This document shows, piece by piece, positions 1 through 64,000 of a stretch of DNA of 64,000 nucleotides. Numbering within the stretch: the first letter of the stretch is position 1; each line of letters begins with the position of its first letter. Both the position numbers and the translations under genes were made by a program. Origin of the DNA: Chamaelirium japonicum. Taxonomy: Eukaryota > Streptophyta > Magnoliopsida > Liliales > Melanthiaceae. The notes beneath the pieces are model-generated. The model was not told the origin of the DNA. It searched no databases and saw nothing but the letters and a program-made list of their open reading frames with translations. The stretch covers positions 1,991,501 through 2,055,500 of the forward strand of contig CANTAL010000023.1 of assembly GCA_947650365.1 (NCBI GenBank), in the 5' to 3' direction.

Positions 1-897
1 AAGAATTAGAATGGATTGTATGAATGAATTAGATTGGATCGTATAAATGAATTAGAATGGATCGTGCGAATGAATTAGAATGGATCGTGCGAATGAATTA
101 TAATGGATCGTACGAATGAATTAGAATGGATCGTACGAATGAATTAGAATGGATCGTTCGAATGAATTAGAATAGATTGTGCGAATGAATTAGTATGGAT
201 CGTACGAATGAATTAGAAAGGATACATTCGTGCGAATGAATTATAATGGATCGTATGAGTGTGAATGAATTAGAATGGATCGTGCGAACGGATTAGAATG
301 GATCGTATTAATGAATTAGAATGGATCGTGCGAATGAATTAGAATGGATCGTACGAATGAGTAAGAATGGATCGTGCGAATGAATTAGAATGGATCATAT
401 GAATGAATTAGAATGGATCGTATGAATGAATTAGAATGGATCGTGCGAATAAATTAGAATGGATCGTATGAATGAATTAGAATAGATTGTGCGAATGAAT
501 TAGAATGGATCGTACGAATGAATTAGAATGGATACATTCATGCGAATGAATTAGAATGGATCATATGAATGAATTAGAATCGATCGTACGAATGAATTAG
601 AATGTATCATGCGAATGAATTAGAATGGATCGTGCGAATGAATTAGAATGGATCGTACGAATGAAATAGAATGGATTGTACGAATGAGATAGAATGGATC
701 GTACGAATGAATTAGAATGGATATATTCATGCGAATGAATTAAAATGGATCATACGAATGAATTAGAATGGATTCATTCGTGCGAATGAATTAGAATGGA
801 TCGTACGAATGAGTAAGAATGGATCGTACGAATGAATTAGAATGGATTGAATTAGAATGAATCGTACGAATGAATTAGAATGGATCGTACGAATGAA
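1..897 (+). repeat. Satellite block 1, forward
   Basis: About 38 forward monomers, with 28-bp variants carrying GGATACATTC and a 15-bp monomer near 846-860. The right end is a fold-back with arms GAATG and CATTC around AAC (891-903); this junction was seen once. Confidence 0.93.
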
Positions 898-1422
898 CCA
901 TTCTAATTCATCCGTACGATCCATTCTATTTCATTCGTACGATCCATTCTTACTCATTCGTACGATCCATTCTAATTCATTCGCACGAATGTATCCATTC
1001 TAATTCATTCGTACGATCCATTCTATTTCATTCGTACGATCTATTCTAATTCATTCGGACAATCCATTCTAATTCATTCGCACGATCTATTCGAATTCAT
1101 TCGCACGAATGTATCCACTCTAATTCATTCATACGATCCATTCTAATTCCTTCGTACGATCCATTCTAATTCATTCGTACGATCCATTCTAATTCATTCG
1201 CACAATCTATTCTAATTCATTCGCACGATCCATATGATCCATTCTAATTCATTTGTACGAATGTATCCACTCTATCTTATTCGTATAATCCATTCTATTT
1301 CATTCGTACGATCCATTCTAATTCATTCGCACGATCCATTCTAATTCATTCGCACAGTCTATTTTAATTCATTCGTACGATCAATTCTAATTCATTAGCA
1401 TGATCCATTCTAATTCATTCGT
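898..1422 (-). repeat. Satellite block 2, reverse
   Basis: The block runs into the 14-bp palindrome CATTCGTACGAATG (1416-1429), where orientation flips. The GATCATGCTAATG variant and its neighbours appear in mirrored order on both sides, offset by about one monomer, so blocks 2 and 3 form a true inverted duplication rather than two unrelated arrays abutting. Confidence 0.93.
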
Positions 1423-2270
1423 ACGAATGAAATAGAATAGATCGTACGAATGAATTAGAATGGATCATGCTAATGAATTAGAATAGATCGTACGAATGAA
1501 TTAGAATAGATTGTGCGAATGAATTAGAATGGATCGTACGAATGAATTGGAATGGATACATTCGTGCGAATGAATTAGAATGGATCGTATGAATGAATTA
1601 GAGTGGATACATTCGTACAAATGAATTAGAATGGATCGTACGAATGAATTAGAATGGATACATTCGTGCGAATGAATTAGAATGGATCATGCGAATGAAT
1701 TAGAATGGATCGTGCGAATGAATTAGAATGGATCGTACGAATGAAATAGAATGGATTGTACGAATGAGATAGAATGGATCGTACGAATGAATTAGAATGG
1801 ATACATTCATGCGAATGAATTAGAATGGATCATACGAATGAATTAGAATGGATTCATTCGTGCGAATGAATCAGAATGGATCGTACGAATGAGTAAGAAT
1901 GGATCGTACGAATGAATTAGAATGGATTGAATTAGAATGATCGTACGAATGAATTAGAATGGATCGTTTGAATAAATTAGAATGGATCGTACTTATGAAT
2001 TAGAATGGGTCATACGAATGAAATAGAATGGATCGTACGAAGGAATTAGAAAGGATCGTACAAACGAATTAGAATGGATCGTATGAATGAAATAGAATAG
2101 ATCGTACGAATGAATTAGAATGGATCGTATGAATGAATTAGATTGGATCGTATGAATGAATTAGAATGGATTGTACGAATGAAATAGAATAGATCGTACG
2201 AATGAATTAGAATGGATCGTGCGAATGAATTAGAATGGGTCGTACGAATGAATTAGAATGGATACACGAT
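1423..2270 (+). repeat. Satellite block 3, forward
   Basis: The block begins as the mirror of block 2 and carries HOR-A markers, then the GAGATAGAATGG module. It ends at junction J4 (GGATACACGATCCAGATCC near 2260-2278), which has a second copy near 26730. Confidence 0.92.
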
Positions 2271-3482
2271 CCAGATCCATTCTAATTCATTCCCACAATC
2301 TATTCTAATTCATTCGTAGGATCCATTCTAATTCATTACTACGATCCATTCTAATTCATTCATACGATCTATTCTAATTCATTCGTACGATCCATTCTAA
2401 TTCATTCGCATGATCCATTCTAATTCATTCATACGATCCATTCTAATTCATTCGTATGTATCCATTCTAATTCATTCATACGATCCATTCTAATTCTACG
2501 ATCCATTCTTACTCATTCGTATTATCCATTTTAATTCATTCACACGAATGTATCAACTCTAATTCATTCGTATGATCCATTCTAATTCATTCGCACGAAC
2601 GATCCATTCTAATTCATTCGTACGATCCATTCTAATTCATTCGTACGATCCATTCTAATTCATTCGTACGATCCATTCTAATTCCTTCGCATGATCCATT
2701 CTAATTCATTCGCACGAATGTATCCATTCTAATTCATTCGTACGATCCATTCTAATTCATTCATACGATCCATTCTAATTCCTTCGTATGATCCATTCTA
2801 ATTCATTCACACGAATGTATCCATTCTAATTCATTCGTACGATCCATTCTAATTCATTCGTACGATCCATTATAAATCCTTCGTATGATCCATTCTAATT
2901 CATTCGTACGATCAATTCTAATTCATACGATCCATTCTAATTCATTCGTACAATCTATTCTAATTCATTCGTACGATCCATTCTAAATCATTCGCACGAA
3001 TGTATCCATTCTAATTCATTCGTACGATCCATTCTAATTCATTCATACGATCCATTCTAATTCATTCGCATGAATGTATCCATTCTAATTCATTCGTACG
3101 ATCCATTCTAATTCATTCGCACAATCTATTCTAATTCATTCATACGATCCATCCTAATTCATTCGCACGAATGTATCCATTCTAATTCATTCGTACAATC
3201 CATTCTATTTCATTCGTACGATCCATTCTTACTCATTCGTACGATCCATTCGTAGATCCATTCTAATTCATTTGTACGATCCATTCTAATTCATTCGCAC
3301 AGTCTATTCTAATTCATTCGTACGATCCATTCTAATTCATTCGCATGATCTATTCTAATTCATTCGTTCGATCCATTCTAATTTATTCGTACGATCCATT
3401 CTAATTCATTCGCACGATCCATTCTAATTCATGCATACGATCCAATCTAAATCATTCATACGATCCATTCTAATTTATTCGT
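2271..3482 (-). repeat. Satellite block 4, reverse
   Basis: The left part (GTAGGATCC, then TTACTACGATCC) matches 26739 onward, so the duplicated segment reaches beyond junction J4. The right end is an ATTC-GTAT-GAAT palindrome; this switch was seen once. Confidence 0.92.
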
Positions 3483-4858
3483 ATGAATGAAATAGAATGG
3501 ATCATACGAATGAAATAGAATGGTTCGTACGAAGGAATTAGAATGGATCGTATGAATGAATTAGAGTGGATACATTCGTGCGAATGAATTCGAATAGATC
3601 GTGCAAATAAATTAGAATGGATTGTACGAATGAATTAGAATGGATCGTACGAATGAAATAGAATGGATCGTACGAATGAATTAGAATGGATACATTCGTG
3701 CAAAAGAAATAGAATGGATTGTATGAATAAATTAGAATGGATCGTGTGAATGAATTAGAATGGATCCTACGAATGAATTAGAATGGATACATTCATGCGA
3801 ATGAATTAGAATGGATCGTGCGAATGAATTAGAATGGATCGTACGAATGAATTAGATTGGATCGTATGAATGAATTAGAATGGATCATGCGAATGAGTTA
3901 GAATGGATCGTGCGAATGAATTAGAATGGATCGTACGAATGAATTAGAATGGATCGTATGAATGAATTAGATTGGATCGTATTAATGAATTAGAATGGAT
4001 CGTACGAATGAATTAGAATAGATCGTACGAATGAATTAGAATGGATACGAATGGATCGTACGAATAAGTAAGAATTGATCGTACGAATGAAATAGAATGG
4101 ATTGTACGAATGAATTAGAATGGATACATTCGTGCGAATGAATTAGGATGGATCGTATGAATGAATTAGAATGGATCGTACGAATGAATTAGAATGGATT
4201 GAATTAGAATGAATCGTACGAATGAATTAGAATGAATCATACCGTACGAATGAATTAGAATGGATCATACGAAGGAATTAGAATGGATCGTACGAATGAA
4301 TTAGAATGGATCGTACGAATGAATTAGAATGGATCGTACGAAGGAATTAGAATGGATAGTACGAATGAATTAGAATGGATACCTTCGTGCAAATGAATTA
4401 GAATGGATCATACGAATGAGTAAGAATGGATCGTACGAATGAAATAGAATGGATCGTATGAATGAATTAGAATGGATCGTGCGAATGAATTAGAATGGAT
4501 CGTCCGAATGAATTAGAATGGATCGTACGAATGAAATAGAATGGATTGTACGAATGAGGTAGAATGGATCGTACGAATGAATTAGAATAGATTGTGCGAA
4601 TGAATTAGAATGGATCGTACGAATGAATTAGAATGGATCGTACGAATGAATTAGAATGGATCGTGCGAATGAATTAGAATGGATCGTACGAATGAAATAG
4701 AATGGATACATTCATGCGAATGAATTAGAATGGATCATATGAATGAATTAGAATGGATCGTTTGAGTGAATGCGAATGGATCGTGCGAATCCATTAGAAT
4801 GGATTTTACGAATGAATTAGAATGGATCGTACGAATGAATTAGAATGGATACATTCGT
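3483..4858 (+). repeat. Satellite block 5, forward
   Basis: Contains the GGATACGAATGG module (near 4035) and HOR-B markers (ATCATACCGTACG near 4228; GATACCTTCGTGC near 4378). It ends at junction J1 in its GGATACATTCGTGCGAATCC form (4847-4866). Confidence 0.93.
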
Positions 4859-7660
4859 GCGAATCCATTCTATTTCATTCGTACGATCCATTCTAATTCA
4901 TTCGCACGATCCATTCTAATTCATTCATACGATCCATTCTAATTCATTCGTACGATCCATTCCAATTCATTCGTACGATCCATTCTAATTCATTCGCACA
5001 ATCTATTCTAATTCATTCGTACGATCCATTCTAATTCATTCGCACGATCCATTCTAATTCATTCATACGATCCATTCTATTTAATTCGTACGATCCATTC
5101 TTACTCATTCGTACGATCCATTCTAATTCATTTGCACGAAGGTATCCATTCTAATTCATTCATACTATCCATTCTAATTCCTTCGTACGATCCATTCTAA
5201 TTCCTTCATATGATCCATTCTAATTCATTCGTACGATCCATTCTAATTCATTCGTACGATCCATTCTAATTCCTTTGTATGATCCATTCTAATTCATTCG
5301 TACGGTATGATTCATTCTAATTCATTCGTACGATTCATTCTAATTCAATCCATTCTAATTCATTCGTACGATTCATTCTAATTCAATCCATTCTAATTCA
5401 TTCGTACGATCCATTCTTACTCATTCGTACGATCCATTCTAATTTATTCGCACGAATGAATCCATTCTAATTCATTCGTATGATCCATTCTAATTCATTC
5501 GCATGAATGTATCCATTCTAATTCATTCGTACGATCCATTCTATCTCATTAGTACGATCCATTCTAATTCATTCGTACGATCCATTCTAATTCATTCATA
5601 CGATCCATTCTATTTCATTCGTACGATCCATTCTAACTCATTCGTACGATCCATTCTAATTCATTTGCAAGAAGGTATCCATTCTAATTCATTTGTACTA
5701 TCCATTCTAATTCCTTCGTACGATCCATTCTAATTCCTTCGTACGATCCATTCTAATTCATTCGTATGATCCATTCTAATTCATTCGTACGATTCATTCT
5801 AATTCCTTCGTATGATCCATTCTAATTCATTCGTACGGTATGATTCATTCTAATTCATTCGTACGATTCATTCTAATTCAATCCATTCTAATTCATTCGT
5901 ACGATCCATTATAATTCATTCGTACGATCCATTCTAATTCATTCGTACGATTCATTCTAATTCAATCCATTCTAATTCATTCGTACGATCCATTCTTACT
6001 CATTCGTACGATCCATTCTAATTCATTCGCATGAATGAATCCATTCTAATTCATTCGTATGATCCATTCTAATTCATTCGCATGAATGTATCCATTCTAA
6101 TTCATTCGTACGATCCATTCTATCTCATTCGTACAATCCATTCTATTTCATTCGTACGATCCATTCTAATTCATTCGCACGATCCATTCTAATTCATTCG
6201 CATGATCCATTCTAATTCATTCGTACGATCGATTCTAATTCATTCGTACGATCCATTCTAATTCATTCGTACGATCCATTCTAATTCATTCGCACAATCT
6301 ATTCTAATTCATTCGTATGAATGAATTCATTCGTACGATCCATTCTAATTTCTTCGTACGATCCATATTCTAATTCATTCGTACGATCCATTCTAATTCA
6401 TTCGCACGATCCATTCTAATTCATTCATACGATCCATTCTAATTCATTCGTACGATCCATTCTAATTCATTCATACGATCCATTCTAATTCATTCGCACA
6501 ATCTATTCTAATTCATTCGTACTATGATTCATTCTAATTCATTCGTACGATTTATTCTAATTCAATCCATTCTAATTCCTTCGTACGATCCATTCTAATT
6601 CATTCGTACGATCCATTCTAATTCATTCGCACGATCCATTCTAATTCATTAGTACGATCCATTCTACTTCATTCATACGATCCATTCTAATTCATTCATA
6701 CGATCAATTCTAATTCATTCGCACGATCCATTCTAATTCATTCGCATGATCCATTCTAATTCATTCGTACGATCGATTCTAATTCATTCATACGATCCAT
6801 TCTAATTCATTCGCACGAATGTATCCATTCTAATTCATTCGTACGATCCATTCTAATTCATTCATACGATCCATCCTAATTCATTCGCACGAATGTATCC
6901 ATTCTAATTCATTCGTACAATCCATTCTATTTCATTCGTACGATCCATTCTTACTCATTCGTACGATCCATTCGTATCCATTCTAATTCATTCGTACGAT
7001 CTATTCTAATTCATTCGTACGATCCATTCTAATTCATTAATACGATCCAATCTAATTCATTCATACGATCCATTCTAATTCATTCGTACGATCCATTCTA
7101 ATTTATTCGCACGATCCATATTCATTCACACGATCCATTCTAATTCATTCATACGATCCATTCTAATTCATTCGTACGATCCATTCTAATTCATTCATAC
7201 GATCCATTCTAATTCATTCATATAATCCATTCTAATTCATTCGTACGGTATGATTCATTCTAATTCATTCGTACGATTCATTCTAATTCAATCCATTCTA
7301 ATTCATTCGTACGATCCATTCTATTTCATTCGTACGATCCATTCTAATTCATTCATACGATCCATTCTAATTCATTCGTACGATCCATTCTAATTCATTC
7401 GTACAATCCATTCTAATTCATCCGTACGATCCATTCGCATTCACTCAAACGATCCATTCTAATTCATTCATATGATCCATTCTAATTCATTCGCACGAAT
7501 GTATCCATTCTAATTCATTCGTACGATCCATTCTAATTCATTTGTATGAATGTATCCACTCTAATTCATTCATACGATCCATTATAATTCATTCGCACGA
7601 ATTTATCCATTCCAATTCATTCGTACGATCAATTATAATTCATTCGCACGATCTATTCGA
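4859..7660 (-). repeat. Satellite block 6, reverse
   Basis: This long reverse block is dominated by HOR-B material. The ACGGTATGATTC marker appears near 5302, 5835 and 7246. It ends at a near-perfect hairpin, GATCTATTC-GA-GAATGGATC, with one arm mismatch; this switch was seen once. Confidence 0.93.
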
Positions 7661-10600
7661 GAATGGATCGTATTAATGAATTAGAATGGATCGTGCGAAT
7701 GAATTAGAATGGATCGTATGAATGAGTAAGAATGGATCGTGCGAATGAATTAGAATGGATCATATGAATGAATTAGAATGGATCGTATGAATGAATTAGA
7801 ATGGATCGTACGAATGAATTCGAATGGATCGTACGAATGAATTAGAATGGATCGTTTGAGTGAATGCGAATGGATCGTACGAATGAATTAGAATGGATCA
7901 TACGAATGAATTAGAATATGGATCGTACGAAGGAATTAGAATGGATCGTACGTATGAATTAGAATGGATCGTGCGAATGAATTAGAATGGATCGTATGAA
8001 TGAATTAGAGTAGATACATTCGTACGAAGGAATTAGAATGGATCGTACGAATGAATTAGAATGGATTATATGAATGAGTTAGAATGGATCGTACGAATGA
8101 ATTATAATGGATCATGCGAATGAATTAGAATAGATCATACGAATGAATTAGAATGGATCGTACGAATGAATTAGAATGGATACATTCGTGCAAAAGAATT
8201 AGAATGGATTGTATGAATGAATTAGAATGGATCGTGCGAATGAATTAGAATGGATACATTCGTGCGAATGAATTAGAATGGATCGTGTGAATGAATTAGA
8301 TTGGATCGTATGAATGAATTAGAATGGATCGTATGAATGAATTAGAATGGATCATACGAATGAATTAGAATGGATCGTACGAATGAAATACAATGGATTG
8401 TACGAATGAGATAGAATGGATCGTACGAATGAATTAGAATGGATACATTCATGCGAATGAATTAGAATGGATCATACGAATGAATTAGAATGGATTCATT
8501 CGTGCGAATGAATTAGAATAGATCGTACGAATGAGTAAGAATGGATCGTACGAATGAATTAGAATGGATTGAATTAGAATGAATCGTACGAATGAATTAG
8601 AATGGATCGTACGAATGAATTAGAATGGATCATACGAATGAATTAGAATGGATTGAATTAGAATGAATCGTACGAATGAATTAGAATGAATCATACCGTA
8701 CGAATGAATTAGAATGGATCATACGAAGAAATTAGAATGGATCGTACGAATGAATTAGAATGGATCGTACGAATGAATTAGAATGGATCGTACGAAGGAA
8801 TTAGAATGGATCGTACGAAGGAATTAGAATGGATAGTACGAATGAATTAGAATGGATCGTACGAATGAGTAAGAATGGATCGTACGAATGAAATAGAATG
8901 GATCGTATGAATGAATTAGCATGGATCGTGCGAATGAATTAGAATGGATCGTACGAATGAATTAGAATAGATTGTGCGAATGAATTAGAATGGATCGTAC
9001 GAATGAATTAGAATGGATCGTACGAATGAATTAGAATGGATCGTACGAATGAATTAGAATAGATTGTGCGAATGAATTAGAATGAATCATACCGTACGAA
9101 TGAATTAGAATGGATCATACGAAGGAATTAGAATGGATCGTACGAATGAATTAGAATGGATCGTACGAATGAATTAGAATGGATCGTACAAAGGAATTAG
9201 AATGGATCGTACGAAGGAATTAGAATGGATAGTACGAATGAATTAGAATGGATACCTTCGTGCAAATGAATTAGAATGGATCGTACGAATGAGTAAGAAT
9301 GGATCGTACGAATGAAATAGAATGGATCGTATGAATGAATTAGAATGGATCGTGCGAATGAATTAGAATGGATCGTACGAATGAATTAGAATAGATTGTG
9401 CGAATGAATTAGAATGGATCGTACGAATGAATTAGAATGGATCGTACGAATGAATTAGAATGGATCGTATGAATGAATTAGAATGGATCGTGCGAATGAA
9501 TTAGAATGGATCGTACGAATGAATTAGAATATGGATCGTACGAAGGAATTAGAATGGATCGTACGAATGAATTAGAATGGATCGTACGAAAGAATTAGAA
9601 TGGACCGTATGAATGAATTAGAATGGATCGTACGAATGAATTAGAATGGATCGTATGAATGAATTAGAATGAATCGTGCGAAAATATTAGAATGGATCGT
9701 ATGAATGAATTAGAATAGATTGTGCGAATGAAATAGAATGGATTGTACGAATGAGATAGAATGGATCGTACGAATGAATTAGAATGGATACATTCATGCT
9801 AATGAATTAGAATGGATCATACGAATGAATTAGAATGGATTCATTCGTGCGAATGAATTAGAATGAATCGTACGAATGAGTAAGAATGGATCGTACGAAT
9901 GAATTAGAATGGATTGAATTAGAATGAATCGTACGAATGAATTAGAATGGATCGTACGAATAAATTAGAATGGATCGTACGAATGAATTAGAATGGATTG
10001 AATTCGAATGAATCGTACGAATGAATTAGAATGAATCATACCGTACGAATGAATTAGAATGGATCATACGAAGGAATTAGAATGGATCGTACGAATGAAT
10101 TAGAATGGATCGTACGAATGAATTAGAATGGATCGTACGGAGGAATTAGAATGGATCGTACGAAGGAATTTGAATGGATAATACGAATGAATTAGAATGG
10201 ATACCTTCGTGCAAATGAATTAGAATGGATCGTACGAATGAGTAAGAATGGATCGTACGAATGAAATAGAATGGATTGTATGAATGAATTTGAATGGATC
10301 GTACGAAGGAATTAGAATGGATCGTACGAAGGAATTAGAATAGATCATAAGAAGAAATTAGAATGGATCGTACGAATGAATTAGAATGGATCGTATGAAT
10401 GAATTAGAATGGATCGTGCGAATGAATTAAAATGGATCGTATGAATGAAATAGAATGGATCGTATGAATTAGAATGGATCGTACGAATGAATTAGAATGG
10501 ATCGTACGAATGAATTAGAATAGATTGTGCGAATGGATTAGAATGGATCATACGATTGAGTAAGAATGGATTGTACGAATGAAATAGAATAGATCGTACG

Positions 10601-10962: not shown

Positions 10963-11530
10963 GCGAATCCAATCTATTTCATTCGTATGATCCATTCTAA
11001 TTCATTCGCACGATCCATTCTAATTCATTCATACGATCCATTCTAATTCATTCGTACGATCCATTCTAATTCATTCGTACGATCCATTCTAATTCATTCG
11101 CACAATCTATTCTAATTCATTCGTACGATCCATTCTAATTCATTCGCACGATCCATTCTAATTCATTCATACGATCCATTCTATTTCATTCGTACAATCC
11201 ATTCTTACTCATTCGTACGATCCATTCTAATTCATTTGCATGAAGGTATCCATTCTAATTCATTCGTACTATCCATTCTAATTCCTTCGTACGATCCATT
11301 CTAATTCCTTCGTACGATCCATTCTAATTCATTCGTACGATCCATTCTAATTCCTTCGTATGATCCATTCTAATTCATTCGTACGGTATGATTCATTCTA
11401 ATTCATTCGTACGATTCATTCTAATTCAATCCATTCTAATTCATTCGTACGATCCATTCTAATTCATTCGTACGATTCATTCTAATTCAATCCATTCTAA
11501 TTCATTCGTTTGATCCATTCTTACTCATCG
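10963..11530 (-). repeat. Satellite block 8, reverse
   Basis: HOR-B material (GCATGAAGGTATCC near 11238, ACGGTATGATTC near 11381). The switch back to forward lies in ACTCATCGTATGCATGAATT near 11525-11544, beside an ATGCAT palindrome. Confidence 0.9.
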
Positions 11531-37246: not shown

Positions 37247-38365
37247 TGTATGAATGAATTAGAATGGATCGTACGAATGAATTAGAGTTGATACATTCGT
37301 GCGAATGAATTAGAATGGATCGTACGAATGAATTAGATTGGATCATATGAATGAATTATAATGGATCATGCGAATGAATTAGAATAGATCATACGAATGA
37401 ATTAGAATGGATCGTACGAATGAATTAGAATGGATACATTCGTGCAAAAGAATTAGAATGGATTGTGCAAATGAATTAGAATGGATCGTACGAATGAGTA
37501 AGAATGGATCGTGCGAATGAATTAGAATGGATCATATGAATGAATTAGAATGGATCGTGCGAATAAATTAGAATGGATCGTATGAATGAATTCGAATGGA
37601 TCGTGCGAATGAATTAGAATGGATCGTATTAATGAATTAGAATGGATCGTGCGAAAGAATTAGAATGGATCGTACGAATGAATTAGAACGGATCGTATTA
37701 ATGAATTAGAATGGATCGTGCGAACGAATTAGAATGGATCGTACGAATGAATTAGAATGTATACATTCGTGCGAAAGAATTAGAATAGATCCTATGAATG
37801 AATTAGAATGGATCGTATGAATGAAATAGAATGGATCATACGAAGGAATTAGAATAGAGAATGGATCGTGCGAATGAATTATTAGAATGGATCGTATGAA
37901 TGAATTAGAATGGATCGTGCGAATGAATTAAAATGGATCGTATGAATGAAATAGAATGGATCGTATGAATTAGAATGGATCGTACGAATGAAATAGAATG
38001 GATCGTACGAATGAATTAGAATAGATTGTGCGAATGGATTAGAATGGATCATACGATTGAGTAAGAATGGATTGTACGAATGAAATAGAATAGATCGTAC
38101 GAATGAATTAGAATGGATCATGCTAATGAATTAGAATGGATCGTTCGAATGAATTAGAATAGATTGTGCGAATGAATTAGAATGGATCGTACGAATGAAT
38201 TAGAATGGATCGTGCGAATGAATTAGAATGGATCGTATGAGTGTGAATGAATTAGAATTGTTTGTGCGAATGAATTAGAATGGATACATTCATGGGAATG
38301 AATTAGAATGGATCGTACGAAGGAATTAGAATGGATCATACGAATGAATTAGAATGGATACATTC
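37247..38365 (+). repeat. Satellite block 31, forward, left of the LINE
   Basis: J2 right flank, then a HOR-A core (37882-38121). The block is interrupted by the LINE inside a 28-bp monomer (GGATACATTC) and continues unchanged at 39659. Confidence 0.93.
38351..38365 (+). repeat. Target-site duplication, left copy
   Basis: AGAATGGATACATTC is repeated exactly after the LINE poly(A) tail at 39659-39673. The first A of the right copy could belong to the tail, giving 14 or 15 bp. It is part of a 28-bp satellite monomer. Confidence 0.93.
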
Positions 38366-38368
38366 TAA

Positions 38369-39130
38369 GGGGAAGGTTTGATTGCTACCATTGCTAAGAT
38401 AGCTTTAGGTTGTGTAGTTTATGTGTTGTGGGAGGAAAGGAACAAAAGAATATTTGATAAGGTTACTAGACATAAAAGACTGCTGCTGGCCATTATTACT
38501 AGAAATATTCATATTCGGCTTTTTAATATCAAATTGCATGAAGAAGACAGCTATGAAACGAGAATTTCTGCAGCTAAATGGGGACTTTCTTTCTCTTCTT
38601 ATCAAAAGAATACAACTCTTGTATACTGGGAAAAACCTACAGTGGATTGGATTAAGCTCAATACAGATGGGGCTGCTAATGTTAATAACACCTCAATTGG
38701 AGGGATTTTCAGAAATTCTGAAGGGCAGGACATTTTGAGCTATTATGGTCCTTCTAGGCAAAAACAAATAATTGCTGTGGAATTGGATGCTATAGAGTAT
38801 GGGCTGTCTTATGCAGAGAAGATGAATATTTCAGATTTATGGATAGAATCTGATTCCTTACTAGCAGTGAATTACATTAAAAACATCTATCCTATTCCTT
38901 GGAGCTGCTGTCAGCAAGTTCAATATATTCAAAAGGAGCTAGATAGATTTAAGCAGTATAAAATTACTCATATTTGGAGAGAAGGAAATCAGCCTGCAGA
39001 TATTCTATCTAAAATGGGACATGATATTGATCAGGTTACTGAGCTGTATCCTGATGAGCTTAAAGGAAATTTAAGAATTGCTATTGAAGCTGATAGGAGG
39101 AAGATTCATTTTGAAAGGAGGACTAACTGA
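38369..39130 (+). pseudogene. LINE ORF2 C-terminal fragment, RNase H domain (RVT_3-like)
   Basis: An open frame of about 253 codons ending in TGA. Counting from 38378, the protein has WEERNKRIF at residues 18-26, the connecting segment seen before the RNase H domain of plant LINEs. An RNase H fold follows at about residues 88-215: D97 in LNTDGA, E135 in AVELDA, D159 in IESDS, H198 in THIWREGN and D208 in QPADIL match the DEDD catalytic set of archaeal-type RNase H. In the intact element this domain would remove RNA from the cDNA hybrid. There is no plausible start: codon 38378 is TTG, the first ATG is at 38822 within the domain, and a TAA lies at the 5' junction (38366-38368). It should not be expressed as a protein unless by readthrough. 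A host RNase H gene is less likely given the truncation, tail and target-site duplication. Confidence 0.88.
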
Positions 39131-39155
39131 ATTGATTGCTGTATTTTTCTGTCAC

Positions 39156-39303
39156 AGGGCTGTGATTGAGCAGGTTTACTGATTTACTAGTATTACAGAA
39201 TAAGTTGGAACAAAGGCTGAGTTGTGAGAAGGCTTTGTTTTTGGGGGGAGTTAGCTGTTTTTCAGAGATGGTTTTATCAGAACAGTTGCTGGAAATTTCA
39301 GAT
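39156..39303 (+). repeat. LINE 3' UTR tandem repeat, copy 1
   Basis: A 148-bp unit beginning AGGGCTGTGATTGAGCAGG and ending TTTCAGAT. It is closely matched by the next copy, including the shared GGAACAAAGGCTGAGTTG and GAGATGGTTTTATCAGAAC strings. Confidence 0.9.
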
Positions 39304-39480
39304 AGGGCTGTGAATGAGCAGGTTTACTGATTTACTAGTTTTTCAGAATTAGTTGGAACAAAGGCTGAGTTGTGAGAAGGCTTTGTTTTGGGGGGAGTTA
39401 GCTGTTTTTCAGAGATGGTTTTATCAGAACAGTATGCTGGATGTTTGATAGCAAGTACTGGTGCTGGGATTTTCAGATAG
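39304..39480 (+). repeat. LINE 3' UTR tandem repeat, copy 2
   Basis: The second copy of the preceding unit, with about 30 extra bases (around GATGTTTGATAGCAAGTACT) before the shared TTTTCAGATAG end. Copies differ at only a few positions in the shared part, so the duplication is young or is a family trait under amplification. Confidence 0.85.
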
Positions 39481-39625
39481 GTTGCTGTGTTTCTGAAGAT
39501 AGTCCTGGATTTGTGATTCCCTCTTTCTAGCATTGTACTTGTCTTTCTTTTCTTTCTCTGTTGTCTTGATTCTATTAAAGACAAGAGTTTGTAATTGCTT
39601 GTTTACATTCTTGGGCGGGGTCCCA

Positions 39626-39631
39626 AATAAA
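39626..39631 (+). promoter_or_regulatory. Polyadenylation signal AATAAA of the LINE
   Basis: AATAAA lies 17 bases before the start of the A-run, a usual distance for 3' end formation of the source LINE transcript. Confidence 0.75.
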
Positions 39632-39648
39632 ATCCCCTAGCTTTGAGT

Positions 39649-39659
39649 AAAAAAAAAAA
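39649..39659 (+). other. LINE poly(A) tail
   Basis: A run of 11 A residues directly before the right target-site duplication; the last A may belong to the duplication. Confidence 0.9.
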
Positions 39660-39673
39660 GAATGGATACATTC
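39659..39673 (+). repeat. Target-site duplication, right copy
   Basis: AGAATGGATACATTC, identical to 38351-38365. The satellite continues in phase from here (GTACGAATGAAATAG), so the unoccupied site was an ordinary 28-bp monomer. Confidence 0.93.
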
Positions 39674-41735
39674 GTACGAATGAAATAGAATGAATTGTAC
39701 GAATGAGATAGAATGGATCGTACGAATGAATTAGAATGGATACATTCATGCGAATGAATTAGAATGGATCATACAAATGAATTAGAATGGATTCATTCGT
39801 GCGAATGAATTAGAATGGATCGTACGAATGAGTAAGAATGGATCGTACGAATGAATTAGAATGGATTGAATTAGAATGAATCGTACGAATGAATTAGAAT
39901 GGATCGTACGAATGAATTAGAATGGATCGTACGAATAAATTAGAATGGATTGAATTAGAATGGATCGTACGATAAAAATGGATCGTACGAATGAAATAGA
40001 ATAGATCGTACGGATAAATGAATTTGGATCGTGCTAATGAATTAGAATGGATCGTACGAATGAATTAGAATGGATCGTACTAATGAATTAGAATAGATTG
40101 TGCGAATGAATTAGAATGGATGGTACGAATGAATTAGAAAGGATATATTCGTGCAAATGAATTAGAATAAATCGTACGAATGAGATAGAATGGATCGTAC
40201 GAATGAATTAGAATGGATATATTCATGCGAATGAATTAGAATGGATCATACGAATGAATTAGAATGGATCGTACGAATGAAATAGAATGGATTGTACGAA
40301 TGAGATAGAATGGATCATACGAATGAATTAGAATGCATACATTCATGCGAATGAATTAGAATGGATCATGCGAATGAATTAGAATGGATCGTGCGAATGA
40401 ATTAGAATGGATCGTACGAATGAAATAGAATGGATTGTACGAATGAGATAGAATGGATCGTACGAATGAATTAGAATGGATACATTCATGCGAATGAATT
40501 AGAATGGATCATACGAATGAATTAGAATGGATTCATTCGTGCGAATAAATTAGAATGGATCGTACGAATGAGTAAGAATGGATCGTACGAATGAATTAGA
40601 ATGGATTGAATTAGAATGAATCGTACGAATGAATTAGAATGGATCGTACGAATGAATTAGAATGGATCATACGAATGAATTAGAATGGATTGAATTAGAA
40701 TGAATCATACGAATGAATTAGAATGAATCATACCGTACGAATGAATTAGAATGGATCATACGAAGGAATTAGAGTGGATCGTGCGAATAAATTAGAATGG
40801 ATCGTATGAATGAATTAGAATAGATTGTGCGAATGAATTAGAATGGATCGTACGAATGAATTAGAATGGATCGTGCGAATGAATTAGAATCGATCGTACG
40901 AATGAATTAGAATGGATCCTGCGAATGAATTAGAATGGATCGTGCGAATGAATTAGAATGGATCGTACGAATGAAATAGAATGGACTGTACGAATGAGAT
41001 AGAATGGATCGTACGAATGAATTAGAATGGATACATTCATGCGAATGAATTAGAATGGATCATACGAATGAATTAGAATGGATTCATTCGTGCGAATGAA
41101 TTAGAATGGATCGTACGAATGAGAAAGAATGGATCGTACGAATGAATTAGAATGGATTGAATTAGAATGAATCGTACGAATGAATTAGAATGGATCGTAC
41201 GAATGAATTAGAATGGATTGAATTAGAATGAATCGTACGAATGAATTAGAATGAATCATACCGTACGAATGAATTAGAATGGATCATACGAAGGAATTAA
41301 AATGGATCGTACGAATGAATTAGAATGGATCGTACGAATGAATTAGAATGGATCGTACGAAGGAATTAGAATGAATCGTACGAAGGAATTAGAATGGATA
41401 GTACGAATGAATTAGAATGGATACCTTCGTGCAAATGAATTAGAATGGATCGTACGAATGAGTAAGAATGGATCGTACGAATAAAATAGAATGGATCGTA
41501 TGAATGAATTAGAATGGATCGTGCGAATGAATTAGAATGGATCGTACGAATGAATTAGAATAGATTGTGCGAATGAATTAGAATGGATCGTACGAATGAA
41601 TTAGATTGGATCGTACGAATGAATTAGAATGGATCGTGCGAATGAATTAGAATGGATCGTACGAATGAATTAGAATGGATCGTACGAAGGAATTAGAATG
41701 GATCGTACGAATGAATTAGAAAGGATACATTCGAA
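39674..41735 (+). repeat. Satellite block 31 continued, forward, right of the LINE
   Basis: The GAGATAGAATGG module appears near 39705, 40287, 40443 and 40997, followed by HOR-B (TCATACC near 40730 and 41257, GATACCTTCGTGC near 41420). A HOR-A fragment (GGATAAATGAATTTGG near 40012) sits between. It ends at J3 in inverted form (GAATTC, 41733-41738). Confidence 0.93.
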
Positions 41736-44400: not shown

Positions 44401-44484
44401 CATGCATACGATCCAATCTAATTCATTCATACGATCTATTCTAATTCATTCGCACGAATGTATCCATTCTAATTCATTCGTACA

Positions 44485-53862: not shown

Positions 53863-55165
53863 CATTTGGACGAATGTATCCAATCTAATTCATTCATACG
53901 ATCCATTCTAATTCATTCGCACGAATGTATCCTTTACAATTCATTCGTACGATCCATTCTAATTCATTCGCACAATCTATTCTAATTCATTCGTACGATC
54001 AATTCTAATTCATTAGCATAATCCATTCTAATTCATTCGTACGATCTATTCTATTTCATTCGTACAATCCATTCTTACTCAATCGTATGATCCATTCTAA
54101 TCCATTCGCACAATCTATTCTAATTCATTCGTACGATCCATTCTATTTCATTCGTACGATACATTCTAATTCCTACGATCCATTCTATTTCATTCATACG
54201 ATCCATTTTAATTCATTCGCACGATCCATTCTAATTCATTCATACGATCCATTCTAATTCATTCGTACGATCATTCTAATTTCTTCGTATGATCCATTCT
54301 AATTCCTTCGTACGATCCATTCAAATTTATTCGCACGAATCTATCCATTCTAATTCATTCGTACGATCCATTCTAATTCATTCGCACGATCCATTCTAAT
54401 TCATTAATACGATCCAATCTAATTCATTCATACGATCTATTCTAATTCATTCGCACGAATATATCCTTTCTAATTCATTCGTACGATCCATTCTAATTCA
54501 TTCGCACAATCTATTCTAATTCATTAGTACGATCCATTCTAATTCATTCGTACGATCCATTCTAATTCATTAGCACGATCCAAATTCATTTATTCATACG
54601 ATCTATTCTATTTCATTCATACGATCCATTCTTATCGCACGATCCATTCTAATTCATTCGCACGATCCATTCTCTATTCTAATTCCTTCGTACGATCCAT
54701 TCTAATTCCTTCGTATCCATTCTAATTCACTCATACGATCCATTCTAATTCATTCATACGATCCATTCTAATTCATTCGCATGAATGTATCCATTCTAAT
54801 TCATTCGTACGATCCATTCTAATTCATTCGCACAATCTATTCTAATTCATTCATACGATCCATCCTAATTCATTCGCACGAATGTATCCATTCTAATTCA
54901 TTCGTACAATCCATTCTATTTCATTCGTACGATCCATTCTTACTCATTCGTACGATCCATTCGTATCCATTCTAATTCATTCGTACGATCTATTCTAATT
55001 CATTCGTACGATCCATTCTAATTCATTAATACGATCCAATTTAATTCATTCATACGATCCATTCTAATTCATTCGTACGATCCATTCTAATTCATTCGCA
55101 CGATCCATTCTAATTCATTCACACGATCCATTCTAATTCATTCATACGATCCATTCTAATTCATT
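53863..55165 (-). repeat. About 1.57-kb-period HOR-A unit, copy 1
   Basis: GATCAATTC marker at 53998, recurring 1566 bp later. It has lost one monomer near 54300 relative to copy 2, so downstream markers are offset by about 1591. The HOR-A core here has GCATAATCC instead of GCATGATCC, so it shows no long open frame. Confidence 0.84.
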
Positions 55166-55429
55166 CGTACGATCCATTCTAATTCATTCGCACGATCCAA
55201 TCTAATTCATTCATACGATCCATTCTAATTCATTCGTACGATCCATTCTAATTCATTCACACAATCCATTCTAATTCATTTGCACAATCCATTCTAATTC
55301 ATTCGTACGATCCATTCTAATTCATTCGTATGATTCATTCTAATTCAATCCATTCTAATTCATTCGCACAATCCATTCTAATTCATTCGTTCGATCCATT
55401 CTAATTCAGTCGTACGATCCATTCTAATT

Positions 55430-56720
55430 CATTTGTACGAATGTATCCACTCTAATTCATTCATACGATCCATTCTAATTCATTCGCACGAATGTATCCA
55501 TTCCAATTCATTCGTACGATCCATTCTAATTCATTCGCACAATCTATTCTAATTCATTCGTACGATCAATTCTAATTCATTAGCATGATCCATTCTAATT
55601 CATTCGTACGATCTATTCTATTTCATTCGTACAATCCATTCTTACTCAATCGTATGATCCATTCTAATCCATTCGCACAATCTATTCTAATTCATTCGTA
55701 CGATCCATTCTATTTCATTCGTACGATCCATTCTAATTCATACGATCCATTCTATTTCATTCATACGATCCATTTTAATTCATTCGCACGATCCATTCTA
55801 ATTCATTCATACGATCCATTCTAATTCATTCGTACGATCCATTCTAATTTCTTCGTATGATCTATTCTAATTCCTTCGTACGATCCATTCTAATTCCTTC
55901 GTACGATCCATTCAAATTCATTCGCACGAATCTATCCATTCTAATTCATTCGTACGATCACTTCTAATTCATTCGCACGATCCATTCTAATAAATTAATA
56001 CGATCCAATCTAATTCATTCATACGATCTATTCTAATTCATTCGTACGAATATATCCTTTCTAATTCATTCGTACGATCCATTCTAATTCATTCGCACAA
56101 TCTATTCTAATTCATTAGTACGATCCATTCTAATTCATTCGTACGATCCATTCTAGTTCATTAGCACGATCCAAATTCATTTATCCGTACGATCTATTCT
56201 ATTTCATTCGTACGATCCATTCTTATCGCACGATCCATTCTAATTCATTCGCACGATCCATTCTTCATTCTAATTCCTTCGTACGATCCATTCTAATTCC
56301 TTCGTATCCATTCTAATTCACTCATACGATCCATTCTAATTCATTCATACGATCCATTCTAATTCATTCGTACGATCCATTCTAATTCATTAGCACAATC
56401 TATTCTAATTCATTCATACGATCCATCCTAATTCATTCGCACGAATGTATCCATTCTAATTCATTCGTACAATCCATTATATTTCATTCGTACGATCCAT
56501 TCTTACTCATTCGTGCGATCCATTCGTATCCATTCTAATTCATTCGTACGATCTATTCTAATTCATTCGTACGATCCATTCTAATTCATTAATACGATCC
56601 AATCTAATTCATTCATACGATCCATTCTAATTCATTCGTACAATCCATTCTAATTCATTCGCACGATCCATTCTAATTCATTCGCACGATCCATTCTAAT
56701 TCATTCATACGATCCATTCT
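55430..56720 (-). repeat. About 1.57-kb-period HOR-A unit, copy 2
   Basis: GATCAATTC at 55564, core at 55585-55824, GCACGATCCAAATTC near 56164. Ends are approximate. Confidence 0.84.
55585..55824 (-). repeat. HOR-A 240-bp core, representative copy
   Basis: A segment of ten full monomers plus a 19-bp monomer and one carrying TATTTCATTC instead of TAATTCATTC at the phase that would otherwise give a stop. Related copies lie at 14895, 23267, 36600, 47238 and 52493 in the same orientation, and at 25845-26120, 32592-32831, 34114-34353, 37882-38121, 58100-58441 and 63376-63615 inverted. An open frame of about 79 codons results on the CCATTC strand; I regard it as non-coding. Confidence 0.88.
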
Positions 56721-56924
56721 AATTCATTCATACAATCCATTCTAATTCTTTTGCACGAATATATCCATTCTAATTCATTCGTACGATCCATTCTAATTCA
56801 TTCGCACAATCTATTCTAATTCATTCGTACGATCTATTCTAATTCATTCGCATGATCCATTATAATTCATTCATACGATCCAATCTAATTCATTCGTACG
56901 ATCCATTCTAATTCTAATTCATGC

Positions 56925-58880
56925 TAATGAATTAGAATAGATCGTACGAATGAATTAGAATAGATTGTGCGAATGAATTAGAATGGATCGTACGAATGAA
57001 TTGGAATGGATACATTCGTGCGAATGAATTAGAATGGATCGTATGAATGAATTAGAGTGGATACATTCGTACAAATGAATTAGAATGGATCGTACGAATG
57101 AATTAGAATGGATACATTCGTGCGAATGAATTAGAATGGATCATATGAATGAATTAGAATGGATCGTACAAATGAGTAAGAAGGGATCATACGAATGAAT
57201 TAGAATGGATTGAATTAGAATGGATCGTATGAATGAATTAGAATTGATCGTACGAATGAATTAGAATGGATCGTATGAATGAATTAGATTGGATCGTATT
57301 AATGAATTAGAATGGATCGTATGAATGAATTAGAATAGATCGTACGAATGAATTAGAATGGATACGAATGAGTAAGAATGGATCGTACGAATGAAATAGA
57401 ATGGATTGTACGAATGAATTAGAATGGATACATTCGTGCGAATGAATTAGGATGGATCGTATGAATGAATTAGAAAAGATTGTGCGAATGAATTAGAATG
57501 GATCGTACGAATGAATTAGAATGGATACATTCATGCGAATGAATTAGAATGGATCGTATGAATGAATTAGAATGGATCATATGAGTGAATTAGAATGGAT
57601 ACAAAGGAATTAGAATGGATCGAACGAAGGAATTAGAATAGAGAATGGATCGTGCGAATGAATTAGAATGGATCGTGCGATAAGAATGGATCGTACGAAT
57701 GAAATCGAATAGATCGTACGGATAAATGAATTTGGATCGTGCTAATGAATTAGAATGGATCGTATTAATGAATTAGAATGGATCGTGCGAATGAATTAGA
57801 ATGGATCGTACGAATGAGTACGAATGGATCGTGCGAATGAATTAGAATGGATCATATGAATGAATTAGAAAGGATCGTATGAATGAATTAGAATGGATCG
57901 TGCGAATAAATTAGAATAGATCGTATGAATGAATTAGAATGGATCATGCGAATGAATTAGAATGGATCGTGCGAATGAATTAGAATGGATCGTACGAATG
58001 AAATAGAATGGATTGTACGAATGAGATAGAATGGATCGTACGAATGAATTAGAATGGATACATTCATGCGAATGAATTAGAATGGATCATACGAATGAAT
58101 TAGAATGGATTCATTCGTGCGAATGAATTAGAATGGATCGTACGAATGAGTAAGAATGGATCGTACGAATGAATTAGAATGGATCGAACGAATGAATTAG
58201 AATGGATACATTCGTGCACAAGAATTAGAATGGATTGTATGAATGAATTAGAATGGATCGTGCGAATGAAATAGAATGGATCGTATGAATTAGAATGGAT
58301 CGTACGAATGAAATAGAATGGATCGTACGAATGAATTAGAATAGATTGTGCGAATGGATTAGAATGGATCATACGATTGAGTAAGAATGGATTGTACGAA
58401 TGAAATAGAATAGATCGTACGAATGAATTAGAATGGATCATGCTAATGAATTAGAATTGATCGTACGAATAAATTAGAATAGATTGTGCGAATGAATTAG
58501 AAGGGATCGTACGAAAGAATTGGAATGGATACATTCGTGCGAATGAATTAGAATGGATCGTATGAATGAATTAGAATCGATCGTACGGATGAATTAGAAT
58601 GGATCGTGCGAATGAATTAGAATGGATCATACGAATGAGTAAGAATGGATCGTACGAATGAAATAGAATGGATCGTACGGATGAATTAGAATGGATCGTG
58701 CGAATGAATTAGAATGGATCGTACGAATGAGTAAGAATGGATCGTATGAATGAATTAGAATGGATCGTGCGAATAAATTAGAACGGATCGAACGAATGAA
58801 TTAGAATGGATCATACGAATGAATTAGAATGGATCGTATGAATAAATTAGAATGGATCGTGCGAATGAATTAGAATGGAT
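56925..58880 (+). repeat. Satellite block 41, forward
   Basis: HOR-A front and middle (GCGATAAGAATGG near 57677), GAGATAGAATGG module, then a HOR-A core variant (58100-58441). It ends at GGATC-ATTCGTAC-GATCC (58876-58893); this switch was seen once. Confidence 0.92.
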
Positions 58881-61530
58881 CATTCGTACGATCCATTCTA
58901 ATTCATTCGCACAATCTATTCTAATTCATTCCTACGATCAATTCTAATTCATTAGCATAATCCATTCTAATTCATTCGTACGATCTATTCTATTTCATTC
59001 GTACAATCCATTCTTACTCAATCGTATGATCCATTCTAATCCATTCGCACAATCTATTCTAATTCATTCGTACGATCCATTCTATTTCATTCGTACGATC
59101 CATTCTAATTCATACGATCCATTCTATTTCATTCATACGATCTATTTTAATTCATTCGCACGATCCATTCTAATTCATTCATACGATCCATTCTAATTCA
59201 TTCGTACGATCCATTCTAATTTCTTCGTATGATCTATTCTAATTCCTTCGTACGATCCATTCTAATTCCTTCGTACGATCCATTCAAATTCATTCATTCG
59301 ATCCATTCTATTTCATTCGTACGATCCATTCTTACTCATTCGTACGATCCATTCTAATTCATTTGCACGAAGGTATCCATTCTAATTCATTCGTATTATC
59401 CATTCTAATTCCTTCGTACGATCCATTCTAATTTCTTCGTACGATCCATTCTAATTCATTCGTACGATCCATTCTAATTCATTCGTACGATCCATTCTAA
59501 TTCCTTCGTATAATCCATTCTAATTCATTCGTACGGTATGATTCATTCTAATTCATTCGTACGATTCATTCTAATTCAATCCATTCTACTTCATTTGTAC
59601 GATCCATTCTAATTCATTCGTACGATCCATTCTAATTCATTCGTACGATTCATTCTAATTCAATCCATTCTAATTCATTCGTACGATCCATTCTTACTCA
59701 TTCGTACGATTCATTCTAATTCATTCGTACGATCCATTCTAATTCATTCATACGATCCATTCTAATTCTTTCGGACGATCCATTCTAATTCATTCGTACG
59801 ATCCATTCTAATTCCTTTGTACGATCCATATTCTAATTCATTCGTACGATATATTCTAATTCATTCGCACGATCCATTCTAATTCATTCATACGATCCAT
59901 TCTAATTCATTCGTACGATCCATTCTAATTCATTCGTACGATCCATTCTAATTCATTCGCACAATCTATTCTAATTCATTCGTACGATCCATTCTAATTC
60001 ATTCGCACGATCTATTCTAATTCATTCATACGATCCATTCTATTTCATTCGTACGATCCATTCTTACTCATTCGTATGATCCATTCTAATTCATTTGCAC
60101 GAAGGTATCCATTCGAATTCATTCGTACTATCCATTCTAATTCCTTCGTACGATCCATTCTAATTCCTTCGTACGATCCATTCTAATTCATTCGTACGAT
60201 CCATTCTAATTCCTTCGTACGATCCATTCTAATTCATTCGTACGGTATGATTCATTCTTATTCATTCGCACAATCTATTCTAATTCATTCGTACGATCCA
60301 TTTTAATTCATTCGTACGATCCATTCTAATTCATTCGAACAATCTATTCTAATTCATTCGTACGATCCATTCTAATTCATTCGCTCGATCCATGCTAATT
60401 CATTCATACGATCCATTCTATTTTATTCGTACGATCCATTCTTACTCATTCGTACGATCCATTCTAATTCATTTGCACGAAGGTATCCATTCTAATTCAT
60501 TCGTACTATCCATTCTAATTCCTTCGTACGATCCATTTAAATTCCTTCGTACGATCCATTCTAATTCATTCGTACGATCCATTCTAATTCATTCGTACGA
60601 TCCATTCTAATTCCTTCGTATGATCCATTCTAATTCATTCGTACGGTATGATTCATTCTAATTCATTCATACGATTCATTCTAATTCAATCCATTCTAAT
60701 TCATTCGTATGATCCATTCTAATTCATTCGTACGATCCATTCTAATTCATTCGTACGATTCATTCTAATTTAATCCATTCTAATTCATTCGTATGATCCA
60801 TTCTTACTCATTCGTACGATCCATTCTAATTCATTCGCACGAATGAATCCATTCTAATTCATTCGTATGATCCATTCTAATTCATTCGCATGAATGTATC
60901 CATTCTAATTCATTCGTATGATCCATTCTATCTCATTTGTACAATCCATTCTATTTCATTCGTACGATCCATTCTAATTCATTCGTATGATCCATTCTTA
61001 TTCATTCATACGATCCATTCTAATTCATTCATACGATCCAATCTAATTCATTCACACGATCCATTCTAATTCATTCGCACGAATGTATCCATTCTAATTC
61101 ATTCGCACGATCCATTCTAATTCATTCATACAATCCATTCTAATTCTTTTGCACGAATGTATCCATTGTAATTCATTCGTACGATCCATTCTAATTCATT
61201 TGTATGATCTATTCTAATTCATTCGCATGATCCATTATAATTCATTCGTACGATCCATTCTAATTCAATCATATAATCCATTCTAATTCATTCGTACGAT
61301 CCATTTTTATTCCTTCGTACGAATGTATCTACTCTAATTCATTCATACGATCCATTCTAATTCATTCGCACGATCCATTCTAATTCATACGTACGATCCA
61401 TTCTAATTCCTTCGTACGATCCATATTCTAATTCATTCGTACGATCCATTCTAATTTATTTGTACAATCCATTCTAATTCATTCGCATGAATGTATCCAT
61501 TCTAATTCATTCGTACGATCCATTCTACGA
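58881..61530 (-). repeat. Satellite block 42, reverse
   Basis: HOR-A core, then three HOR-B-like stretches (ACGAAGGTATCC near 59367, 60100 and 60478). It ends in a strong hairpin, GATCCATTCTA-CGAAT-TAGAATGGATC (61517-61543); this switch was seen once. Confidence 0.93.
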
Positions 61531-63892
61531 ATTAGAATGGATCGTATGAATGAATTAGAGTGGATCGTGCGAATAAATTAGAATGGATCGTATGAATGAA
61601 TTAGAATAGATTGTGCGAATGAATAAGAATGGATCGTACGAATGAATTAGAATGGATACATTCGTGCGATTGAATTAGAATGGATCATACGAATGAATTA
61701 GAATGGATCATATGAATGAATTAGAATGGATCGTACGAATTAATTAGAATGGATACATTCATGCGAATGAATTAGAATGGATCATACGAATGAATTAGAA
61801 TGGATTCATTCGTGCGAATGAATTAGAATGGATCATACGAATGAGTAAGAATGGATCGTACGAATGAATTAGAATGGATCGTGCGAATGAATTAGAATGG
61901 ATCGTACGAATGAATTAGAATGGATTGAATTAGAATGAATCGTACGAATGAATTAGAATGGATCGTACGAATGAATTAGAATGGATCGTACGAATGAAAT
62001 AGAATGGATCGTATGAATGAATTAGAATGGATCGTGCGAATGAATTAGAATGGATCGTACGAATGAATTAGAATAGATTGTGCGAATGAATTAGAATGGA
62101 TCGTATGATTGAATTAGAATGAATCGTACGAATGAATTAGAATGGATCGTACGAATGAATTAGAATGGATCGTATGAATGAATTAGAATGGATTGAATTC
62201 GAATGAATCGTACGAATGAATTAGAATGAATCATACCATACGAATGAATTAGAATGGATAATACGAAGGAATTAGAATGGATCGTACAAATGAATTAGAA
62301 TGGATCGTACGAATGAATTAGAATAGATCGTACGAAGGAATTAGAATGGATCGTACGAAGGAATTAGAATGGATAGTACGAATGAATTAGAATGGATACC
62401 TTCGTGCAAATGAATTAGAATGGATCGTACGAATGAGTAAGAATGGATCGTACGAATGAAATAGAATGGATCGTATGAATGAATTAGAATGGATCGTGCG
62501 AATGAATTAGAATGGATCGTACGAATGAATTAGAATAGATTGTGCGAATGAATTAGAATGGATCGTACGAATGAAATAGAATGGATCGTACGGATGAATT
62601 AGAATGGATCGTGCGAATGAATTAGAATGGATCGTACGAATGAGTAAGAATGGATCGTATGAATGAATTAGAATGGATCGTGCGAATGAATTAAAATGGA
62701 TCGTATGAATGAAATAGAATGGATCGTATGAATTAGAATAGATTGTGCGAATGGATCGTATGAATGAATTAGAATGGATCGTATGAATGAATTAGAATGG
62801 ATCGTACGAATGAATTAGAATGGATCGTATGAATGAATTAGAATGGATCATACGAATGAATTAGAATGGATCGTATGAGTGAATTAGAATGGATACGAAG
62901 GAATTAGAATGGATCGTACGAAGGAATTAGAATGGAGAATGGATCGTGCGAATGAATTAGAATGGATCGTGCGATAAGAATGGATCGTACGAATGAAATA
63001 GAATAGATCGTACGGATAAATGAATTTGGATCGTGCTAATGAATTAGAATGGATCGTACGAATGAATTAGAATGGATCGTACTAATGAATAAGAATAGAT
63101 TGTGCGAATGAATTAGAATGGATCGTACGAATGAATTAGAAAGGATATATTCGTGCGAATGAATTAGAATAGATCGTATGAATGAATTAGATTGGATCGT
63201 ATTAATGAATTAGAATAGATCGTGCGAATGAATTAGAATGGATCGTACGAATGAATTAGAATGGATAGATTCGTGCGAATGAATTTGAATGGATCGTACG
63301 AAGGAATTAGAATGGATCGTACGAAGGAATTAGAATAGATCATACGAAGAAATTAGAATGGATCGTACGAATGAATTAGAATGGATCGTATGAATGAATT
63401 AGATTGGATCGTGTGAATGAATTAAAATGGATCGTATGAATGAAATAGAATGGATCGTATGAATTAGAATGGATCGTACGAATGAAATAGAATGGATCGT
63501 ACGAATGAATTAGAATAGATTGTGCGAATGGATTAGAATGGATCATACGATTGAGTAAGAATGGATTGTACGAATGAAATAGAATAGATCGTACAAATGA
63601 ATTAGAATGGATCATGCTAATGAATTAGAATTGATCGTACGAATGAATTAGAATAGATTGTGCGAATGAATTAGAATGGATCGTACGATTGAATTGGAAT
63701 GGATACATTCGTGCGAATGAATTAGAATGGATCGTATGAATGAATTAGAGTGGATACATTCGTACAAATGAATTAGAATGGATCGTACGAATGAATTAGA
63801 ATGGATACATTCGTGCGAATGAATTAGAATGGATCATATGAATGAATTAGAATGGATCGTTTGAGTGAATGCGAATGGATCGTGCGAATGAA
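61531..63892 (+). repeat. Satellite block 43, forward
   Basis: HOR-B (GATACCTTCGTGC near 62395), then a HOR-A unit collinear with 32089-33000 at a fixed offset of 30784 bp (core at 63376-63615). It ends at GAATTC (63890-63895), but the flanks differ from J3. Confidence 0.93.
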
Positions 63893-64000
63893 TTCCATTC
63901 TAATTCATTCGTACGATCCATTATAATTCATTCGCACAATCTATTCTAATTCATTCGTACGATCCATTCTAATTCATTTGCACGATTAATTCTAATTCAT
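63893..64000 (-). repeat. Satellite block 44, reverse (runs off the window)
   Basis: About five reverse monomers before the window end; the block is incomplete. Confidence 0.92.

Follow-up and report, generated by a model that had tools for sequence, protein, structure and literature searches.

In Chionographis japonica, arrays of the holocentromere satellites Chio1 and Chio2 coincide with CENH3, and Chio2 is set apart from Chio1 by a 5-bp indel and one substitution (main-text portions of Kuo et al. 2023, PMC10264360). The same portions report frequent alternation and mixing of forward and reverse Chio arrays, attribute about 16–17 % of the genome to Chio1/Chio2 and describe an assembly built from HiFi reads at 58.5x. 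A 9-mer, TTCGTACGA, has been described in the 23-bp Chio monomer, and according to the relevant parts of the same paper it also occurs in the Chama satellite of Chamaelirium luteum (Kuo et al. 2025, PMC12722358). Chama differs in having a 60-bp monomer, consistently oriented arrays and no retrotransposons inside them. The present analysis concerns a 64,000-bp stretch of one contig of the C. japonica assembly (C35:1991501-2055500, hereafter the window; the assembly totals 1,518,659,071 bp), which is occupied by a satellite array of alternating orientation and a single inserted long interspersed nuclear element (LINE).

Judged by its monomers, the satellite of the window is a mixture of Chio1 (23 bp) and Chio2 (28 bp). 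Tandem Repeats Finder (TRF) returned period 23 with the unit GAATTAGAATGGATCGTACGAAT, in agreement with an earlier sequence-only reading of this DNA, which had described a 23-bp satellite but noted neither the 28-bp variant monomer nor the LINE; the unit contains TTCGTACGA on the opposite strand. The second monomer, GAATTAGAATGGATACATTCGTGCGAAT, equals Chio1 plus five inserted bases and one substitution and is intermingled with the first (851 of the 7,700 monomers in 184.8 kb of C35 that were parsed, window included). Monomers, indel and substitution, 9-mer and mixed orientation are thus the same as in the described portions of PMC10264360, and no tested feature differs. The window would be a stretch of one megabase CENH3-bound unit of the holocentromere, its CENH3 occupancy being one that we infer from that paper. 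In the assembly, one exact 39-mer from the unit has 350,259 forward and 355,230 reverse occurrences (reversed control, 0), which gives a rough Chio share of 20.8 % when the 39-mer density is scaled by the 140 window copies, somewhat more than the 16–17 % published.

The satellite and its alternating orientation are therefore already known in outline, and as a finding they add little. What is new are signs that many flips copy older flips, that some pivot on an 8-base dyad, and that a LINE apparently targets the satellite; the main-text portions of PMC10264360 mention neither families of junctions, nor a test for dyad pivots, nor a LINE aimed at Chio. Of these results, the dyad pivot and the LINE most deserve further attention. 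The anatomy of the junctions ties a conserved dyad, whose role the published authors left open, to a measurable product, the orientation switch.

Orientation blocks in the window and beyond

Orientation was read from runs of the markers GAATGG and CCATTC and from a Viterbi parse over the two strands that allowed either orientation of the 23-bp and 28-bp units, its penalties being the analyst's choice. Both yield 44 blocks and 43 switches, the block split by the LINE being taken as one, and this agreement rules out a miscount of the switches. The array and one example block are:

1..64000, no strand: Chio1/Chio2 satellite array with 44 alternating blocks and 43 switches (marker runs, TRF, Viterbi parse)
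898..1418, minus strand: reverse block between two forward blocks (Viterbi parse)

By the same parse the plus orientation covers 33,603 bp, the minus orientation 29,104 bp and the insert 1,293 bp, and the mean switch spacing is 64,000/43 = 1.49 kb. The flips are confirmed as real and nearly strand-balanced, and the counts given by the sequence-only reading (44 blocks, 43 switches, a flip about every 1.5 kb, near-equal strand totals) hold throughout. Its further claim that a long single strand can fold back on itself is correct in a loose sense only: opposite blocks are about 80–86 % complementary and form no perfect palindromes. No Rfam family reached its gathering score within the window.

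The parsed 184.8 kb of the contig contain 173 switches (87 head-to-head and 86 tail-to-tail), with orientation blocks of 1.0 kb on average and 3.8 kb at most. Six samples were taken elsewhere in the genome, where the earlier reading had advised looking for a like architecture, and five of them have it: four on scaffolds C1 and C2 with 14, 13, 22 and 18 switches per 10 kb, and one on C150 with 4 switches in 8 kb; the sixth, on C60, contains no satellite. The flipping in the window is ordinary for the species and not extreme. Among the matches listed for C1 and C2 all were on the plus strand, which had suggested unflipped arrays there, an idea ruled out by the 13 to 22 switches per 10 kb found in the DNA itself.

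Junction families and the dyad

Junctions were grouped into families by the 200 bp around each switch with a 90 % identity cut-off, against a background junction identity of 0.80 (standard deviation 0.046) in which 1.9 % of pairs reach at least 0.90. The 43 switches of the window fall into 23 families, the 22 head-to-head switches into 8 and the 21 tail-to-tail switches into 15. On the parsed stretch, 173 switches form 61 families at this cut-off; the number depends on it, with 33 families at 0.85, 61 at 0.90 and 87 at 0.95, and at 95 % the largest family keeps 46 members. When further arrays are added, the effective number of families is 3.1 for head-to-head junctions (121 junctions in 26 families) and 31.5 for tail-to-tail junctions (122 in 73). 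Across C35 and the samples on C1, C2 and C150, head-to-head junctions are nearly uniform and tail-to-tail junctions diverse. One head-to-head junction, GGATACATTCGTGCGAAT joined to CCATTCTATTTC, accounts for 53 of the 87 on the contig and 12 of the 22 in the window:

4805..4925, new block from 4865, no strand: head-to-head switch of the dominant family (parse and clustering)
New-block starts at 10969, 16298, 18771, 20727, 22925, 24875, 34702, 46893, 50586, 52147 and 53672, no strand: the other members of this family, 12 in all

Many switches lie in duplicated DNA. Repeated segments of 300 bp or more, with copies at an identity of at least 92 % within the same 185 kb, include 114 of the 173 switches (71 of 87 head-to-head, 43 of 86 tail-to-tail; 22 of 43 in the window), and a direct copy of 6,965 bp at 93.0 %, on C35 outside the window, carries 7 switches. 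Multi-monomer segments thus recur at high identity, as in a higher-order repeat of the CL73-like kind. Since the switches lie mostly in recurring stretches and share junction families, duplication has multiplied old flips, and the 43 switches are not 43 separate events. Multi-switch stretches at about 1943 to 1977 kb of C35 recur some 17 kb further on at about 93–97 % identity.

The monomer holds a self-complementary 8-mer dyad, TCGTACGA. Its relation to the switches was assessed by the sum of the monomer phases on either side, a variable that is unaffected by the exact placement of the switch and is defined for 65 tail-to-tail families (undefined in 8 of 73) and 22 head-to-head families (undefined in 4 of 26). 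A strict dyad pivot is a break within or beside TCGTACGA in mirror register, and random joins of real segments served as control. Such pivots were found in 16 of the 65 tail-to-tail families, and the simulation produced 13 among 932 joins (binomial p 7e-16). A looser test, which accepts mirror register anywhere in the monomer, gives 17 of 65 against 17 of 372 (p 3.7e-9), one of the 17 lying off the dyad. Strict pivots make up 5 of the 21 tail-to-tail switches of the window:

1379..1459, new block from 1419, no strand: tail-to-tail switch pivoting on TCGTACGA (strict phase test)
3479, 11965, 27734 and 49977, no strand: the other strict dyad pivots

Origin of the flips

From these observations we infer a repair pathway and an order of events, to which we assign a probability of roughly 55 %: flips would arise by short-homology template switching at the dyad and be followed by duplication of the flipped segments. 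A broken or stalled strand ending in TCGTACGA could re-anneal to a monomer of either orientation; template switching over this short homology, or else an exchange between dyads, would then sometimes carry repair onto the other strand and so flip the orientation. Segments bearing flips would later be duplicated, both directly and in inverted form. Duplication would multiply a small number of old head-to-head junctions, while those of the tail-to-tail kind would remain diverse.

Several points weigh against this account. Strict dyad pivots are not in excess among the head-to-head families (1 of 22, p 0.28), which lowers our confidence in the mechanism, and the account does not explain the contrast between the two kinds of switch. 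Within one base of the dyad there are 4 head-to-head families of 22 (p 0.021), and their peak in the looser test (6 of 22, p 2.8e-4) lies one unit off and does not reflect strict pivots. Even among tail-to-tail families 49 of 65 pivot elsewhere; roughly one in four is attributable to the dyad, as is no clear share of the head-to-head families, and the dyad thus explains the flips in part only. The expected tail-to-tail value was derived post hoc, after the peak had been seen, although p stays small when multiplied by 23 values. The dyad families are perhaps not all independent either: at looser clustering the 17 merge into 10 to 15 groups (10 at 0.86 identity), and p therefore overstates their independence. 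Finally, exchange at dyads and replicative template switching yield an identical junction. The template switching suggested by the sequence-only reading is accordingly compatible with the excess of dyad pivots at tail-to-tail switches, an excess that has no counterpart at head-to-head ones.

The alternative that survives best, though we hold it unlikely, is plain inversion by homologous exchange between inverted blocks, with no new junction sequences. Of the 290 duplicate pairs of at least 800 bp, 141 are inverted and 149 direct, and this near equality is what such inversions could produce. However, exchange of this kind shuffles blocks without making new junctions, and yet 73 tail-to-tail families exist.

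Fold-back replication, either hairpin-primed or by breakage and fusion, is an established route to inverted duplications. It had been put forward by the sequence-only reading, and each flip would then be an inverted duplication of the adjoining sequence. Two adjacent monomers are predicted to form a hairpin through the dyad (-6.8 kcal/mol, z -3.53). Copying of a folded strand would leave arms that mirror each other, and the arms of one junction were compared with the arms of other junctions, class by class:

Dyad tail-to-tail: same against other junction 0.805 / 0.820 next to the switch, 0.848 / 0.823 at 150 bp
Other tail-to-tail: 0.831 / 0.820 next to the switch, 0.840 / 0.831 at 150 bp
Largest head-to-head family: 0.857 / 0.876 next to the switch, 0.833 / 0.838 at 150 bp
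Other head-to-head: 0.846 / 0.847 next to the switch, 0.822 / 0.822 at 150 bp

On average, then, the two arms of a junction are no closer to each other than to foreign arms, and mirrored arms at the inversion points are lacking, a result that holds for recent events, as old arms may have diverged. The comparison recognised 40 of 42 positive controls, which were made by redrawing every base with a probability of 5 %. Similarities of at least 0.93 are found for the arms of 4 of 75 non-dyad tail-to-tail junctions against 4 of 285 comparison arms and, at the far offset, for 2 of 17 dyad tail-to-tail junctions against 1 of 60; this slight excess could come from a few real fold-backs. As a general source of the flips, fold-back replication is improbable and ranks below plain inversion.

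The alternation might also be selected, the head-to-head Chio2 hairpin being a functional centromere element that is kept for this reason. The dominant head-to-head junction makes up 65 of the 121 sampled, the genome contains 10,912 exact copies of its 35-mer core (5,500 forward and 5,412 reverse; control, 0), and the junction is predicted to fold strongly as single-stranded DNA (-15.9 kcal/mol, z -7.35). However, amplification alone could give an equal excess, and the 7 head-to-head switches of the C1 sample include none of this family, which leaves selection quite improbable. HiFi reads are longer than the blocks of the parsed stretch. It is most improbable that the flips are assembly joins: satellite assembly is generally error-prone and the contig does terminate in satellite 20.8 kb past the window, but blocks as short as these would fit within single reads, the assembly used HiFi data at the 58.5x given in the portions of PMC10264360 referred to above, one junction recurs on many contigs and on both strands, and the satellite of the sister species was found consistently oriented (in parts of PMC12722358).

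A LINE family in the satellite

Some LINEs are sequence-specific: R2 inserts into ribosomal DNA and TRAS/SART into telomere repeats, each having one target repeat, a fixed orientation and a preferred junction. The sole insert in the window appears to belong to a family with similar habits. It runs in the sense of the GAATGG orientation of its host block and has kept only the part of the element with the RNase H-like RVT_3 domain (PF13456, E 3.7e-19):

38366..39659, plus strand: 5'-truncated L1-type LINE with the 3' part of open reading frame 2 (ORF2), 3' untranslated region (UTR) and poly-A (TRF, PF13456, Viterbi parse)
38352..38365, plus strand: left copy of GAATGGATACATTC, which appears to be a target-site duplication of 14 bp, within a Chio2 monomer
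39660..39673, plus strand: right copy of GAATGGATACATTC, after the poly-A
39156-39441: tandem repeat with a 148-bp unit (1.9 copies), part of the LINE 3' UTR

The length of a target-site duplication is uncertain inside a tandem repeat. A close copy on C150, with an apparent duplication of 15 bp, carries the domains of an Exo_endo_phos endonuclease (PF03372) and a reverse transcriptase (PF00078); zf-RVT remained under its cut-off in this copy.

The flanks of the best 40 of 389 candidate 3' ends, comprising 35 distinct flanks, were scored. Chio follows all 40, always in the GAATGG orientation, where random insertion would place about one fifth in Chio and half of these in either orientation. The insertion point is exactly at GAATGG in 21 of these 40 and at GAAT in 27, the rest being spread, and the 40 include relatives down to about 54 % protein identity (places matched by eye). 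The 55 exact 3' ends comprise 36 whose flanks were read, a further 11 that have a sense Chio motif after them by pattern, and 8 without assignment. A genome-wide pattern count found 38 3' ends with GAATGGAT within 15 bases and 1 with ATCCATTC; this antisense end is a counter-example to strict orientation. From these flanks, all of this family and its relatives, it is likely that the family targets the Chio satellite.

We consider it probable that these elements form a plant L1-type lineage specific for the holocentromere satellite, with a putative nick mainly after CCATTC on the CCATTCTAATTC strand. As this nick would lie within the Chio monomer, copies would land in CENH3-bearing arrays in the orientation of the local block, and the nicks may feed the breaks from which flips and amplification start. 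Among the best 150 of 6,786 protein candidates, several copies have open frames of 1,383 to 1,407 codons, and the LINE may therefore still be mobile. If the targeting is true, it would link a retrotransposon endonuclease to kinetochore-building DNA, and the insertions could be used as reference points when the arrays are assembled and dated.

With R2 and TRAS/SART the Chio LINE shares the fixed orientation and, apparently, the single target repeat and the preferred junction; it is unlike them in being a plant L1-type element with Exo_endo_phos, in its centromere satellite target and in its somewhat loose position. Jockey-3 (G2), another centromere LINE, is reportedly concentrated in Drosophila centromeres; to our knowledge, targeting of a satellite monomer with fixed orientation has not been described for it. 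Among the titles listed for the literature on LINE targeting, none concerns a plant LINE specific for a centromere satellite, and the term 'non-LTR' (LTR, long terminal repeat) is absent from the main text, supplements aside, of both Chionographis papers (PMC10264360, PMC12722358).

The LINE region, 38300-39700, which was the part compared with phage records, gave no match among them. Some related LINE copies match the 148-bp repeat in several pieces, and its copy number may vary. Two further inserts on C35 outside the window, at C35:1919701-1922063 and C35:1984386-1985760, start with TG, end at or next to CA and have short flanking direct repeats, as expected of LTR-type elements or solo LTRs.

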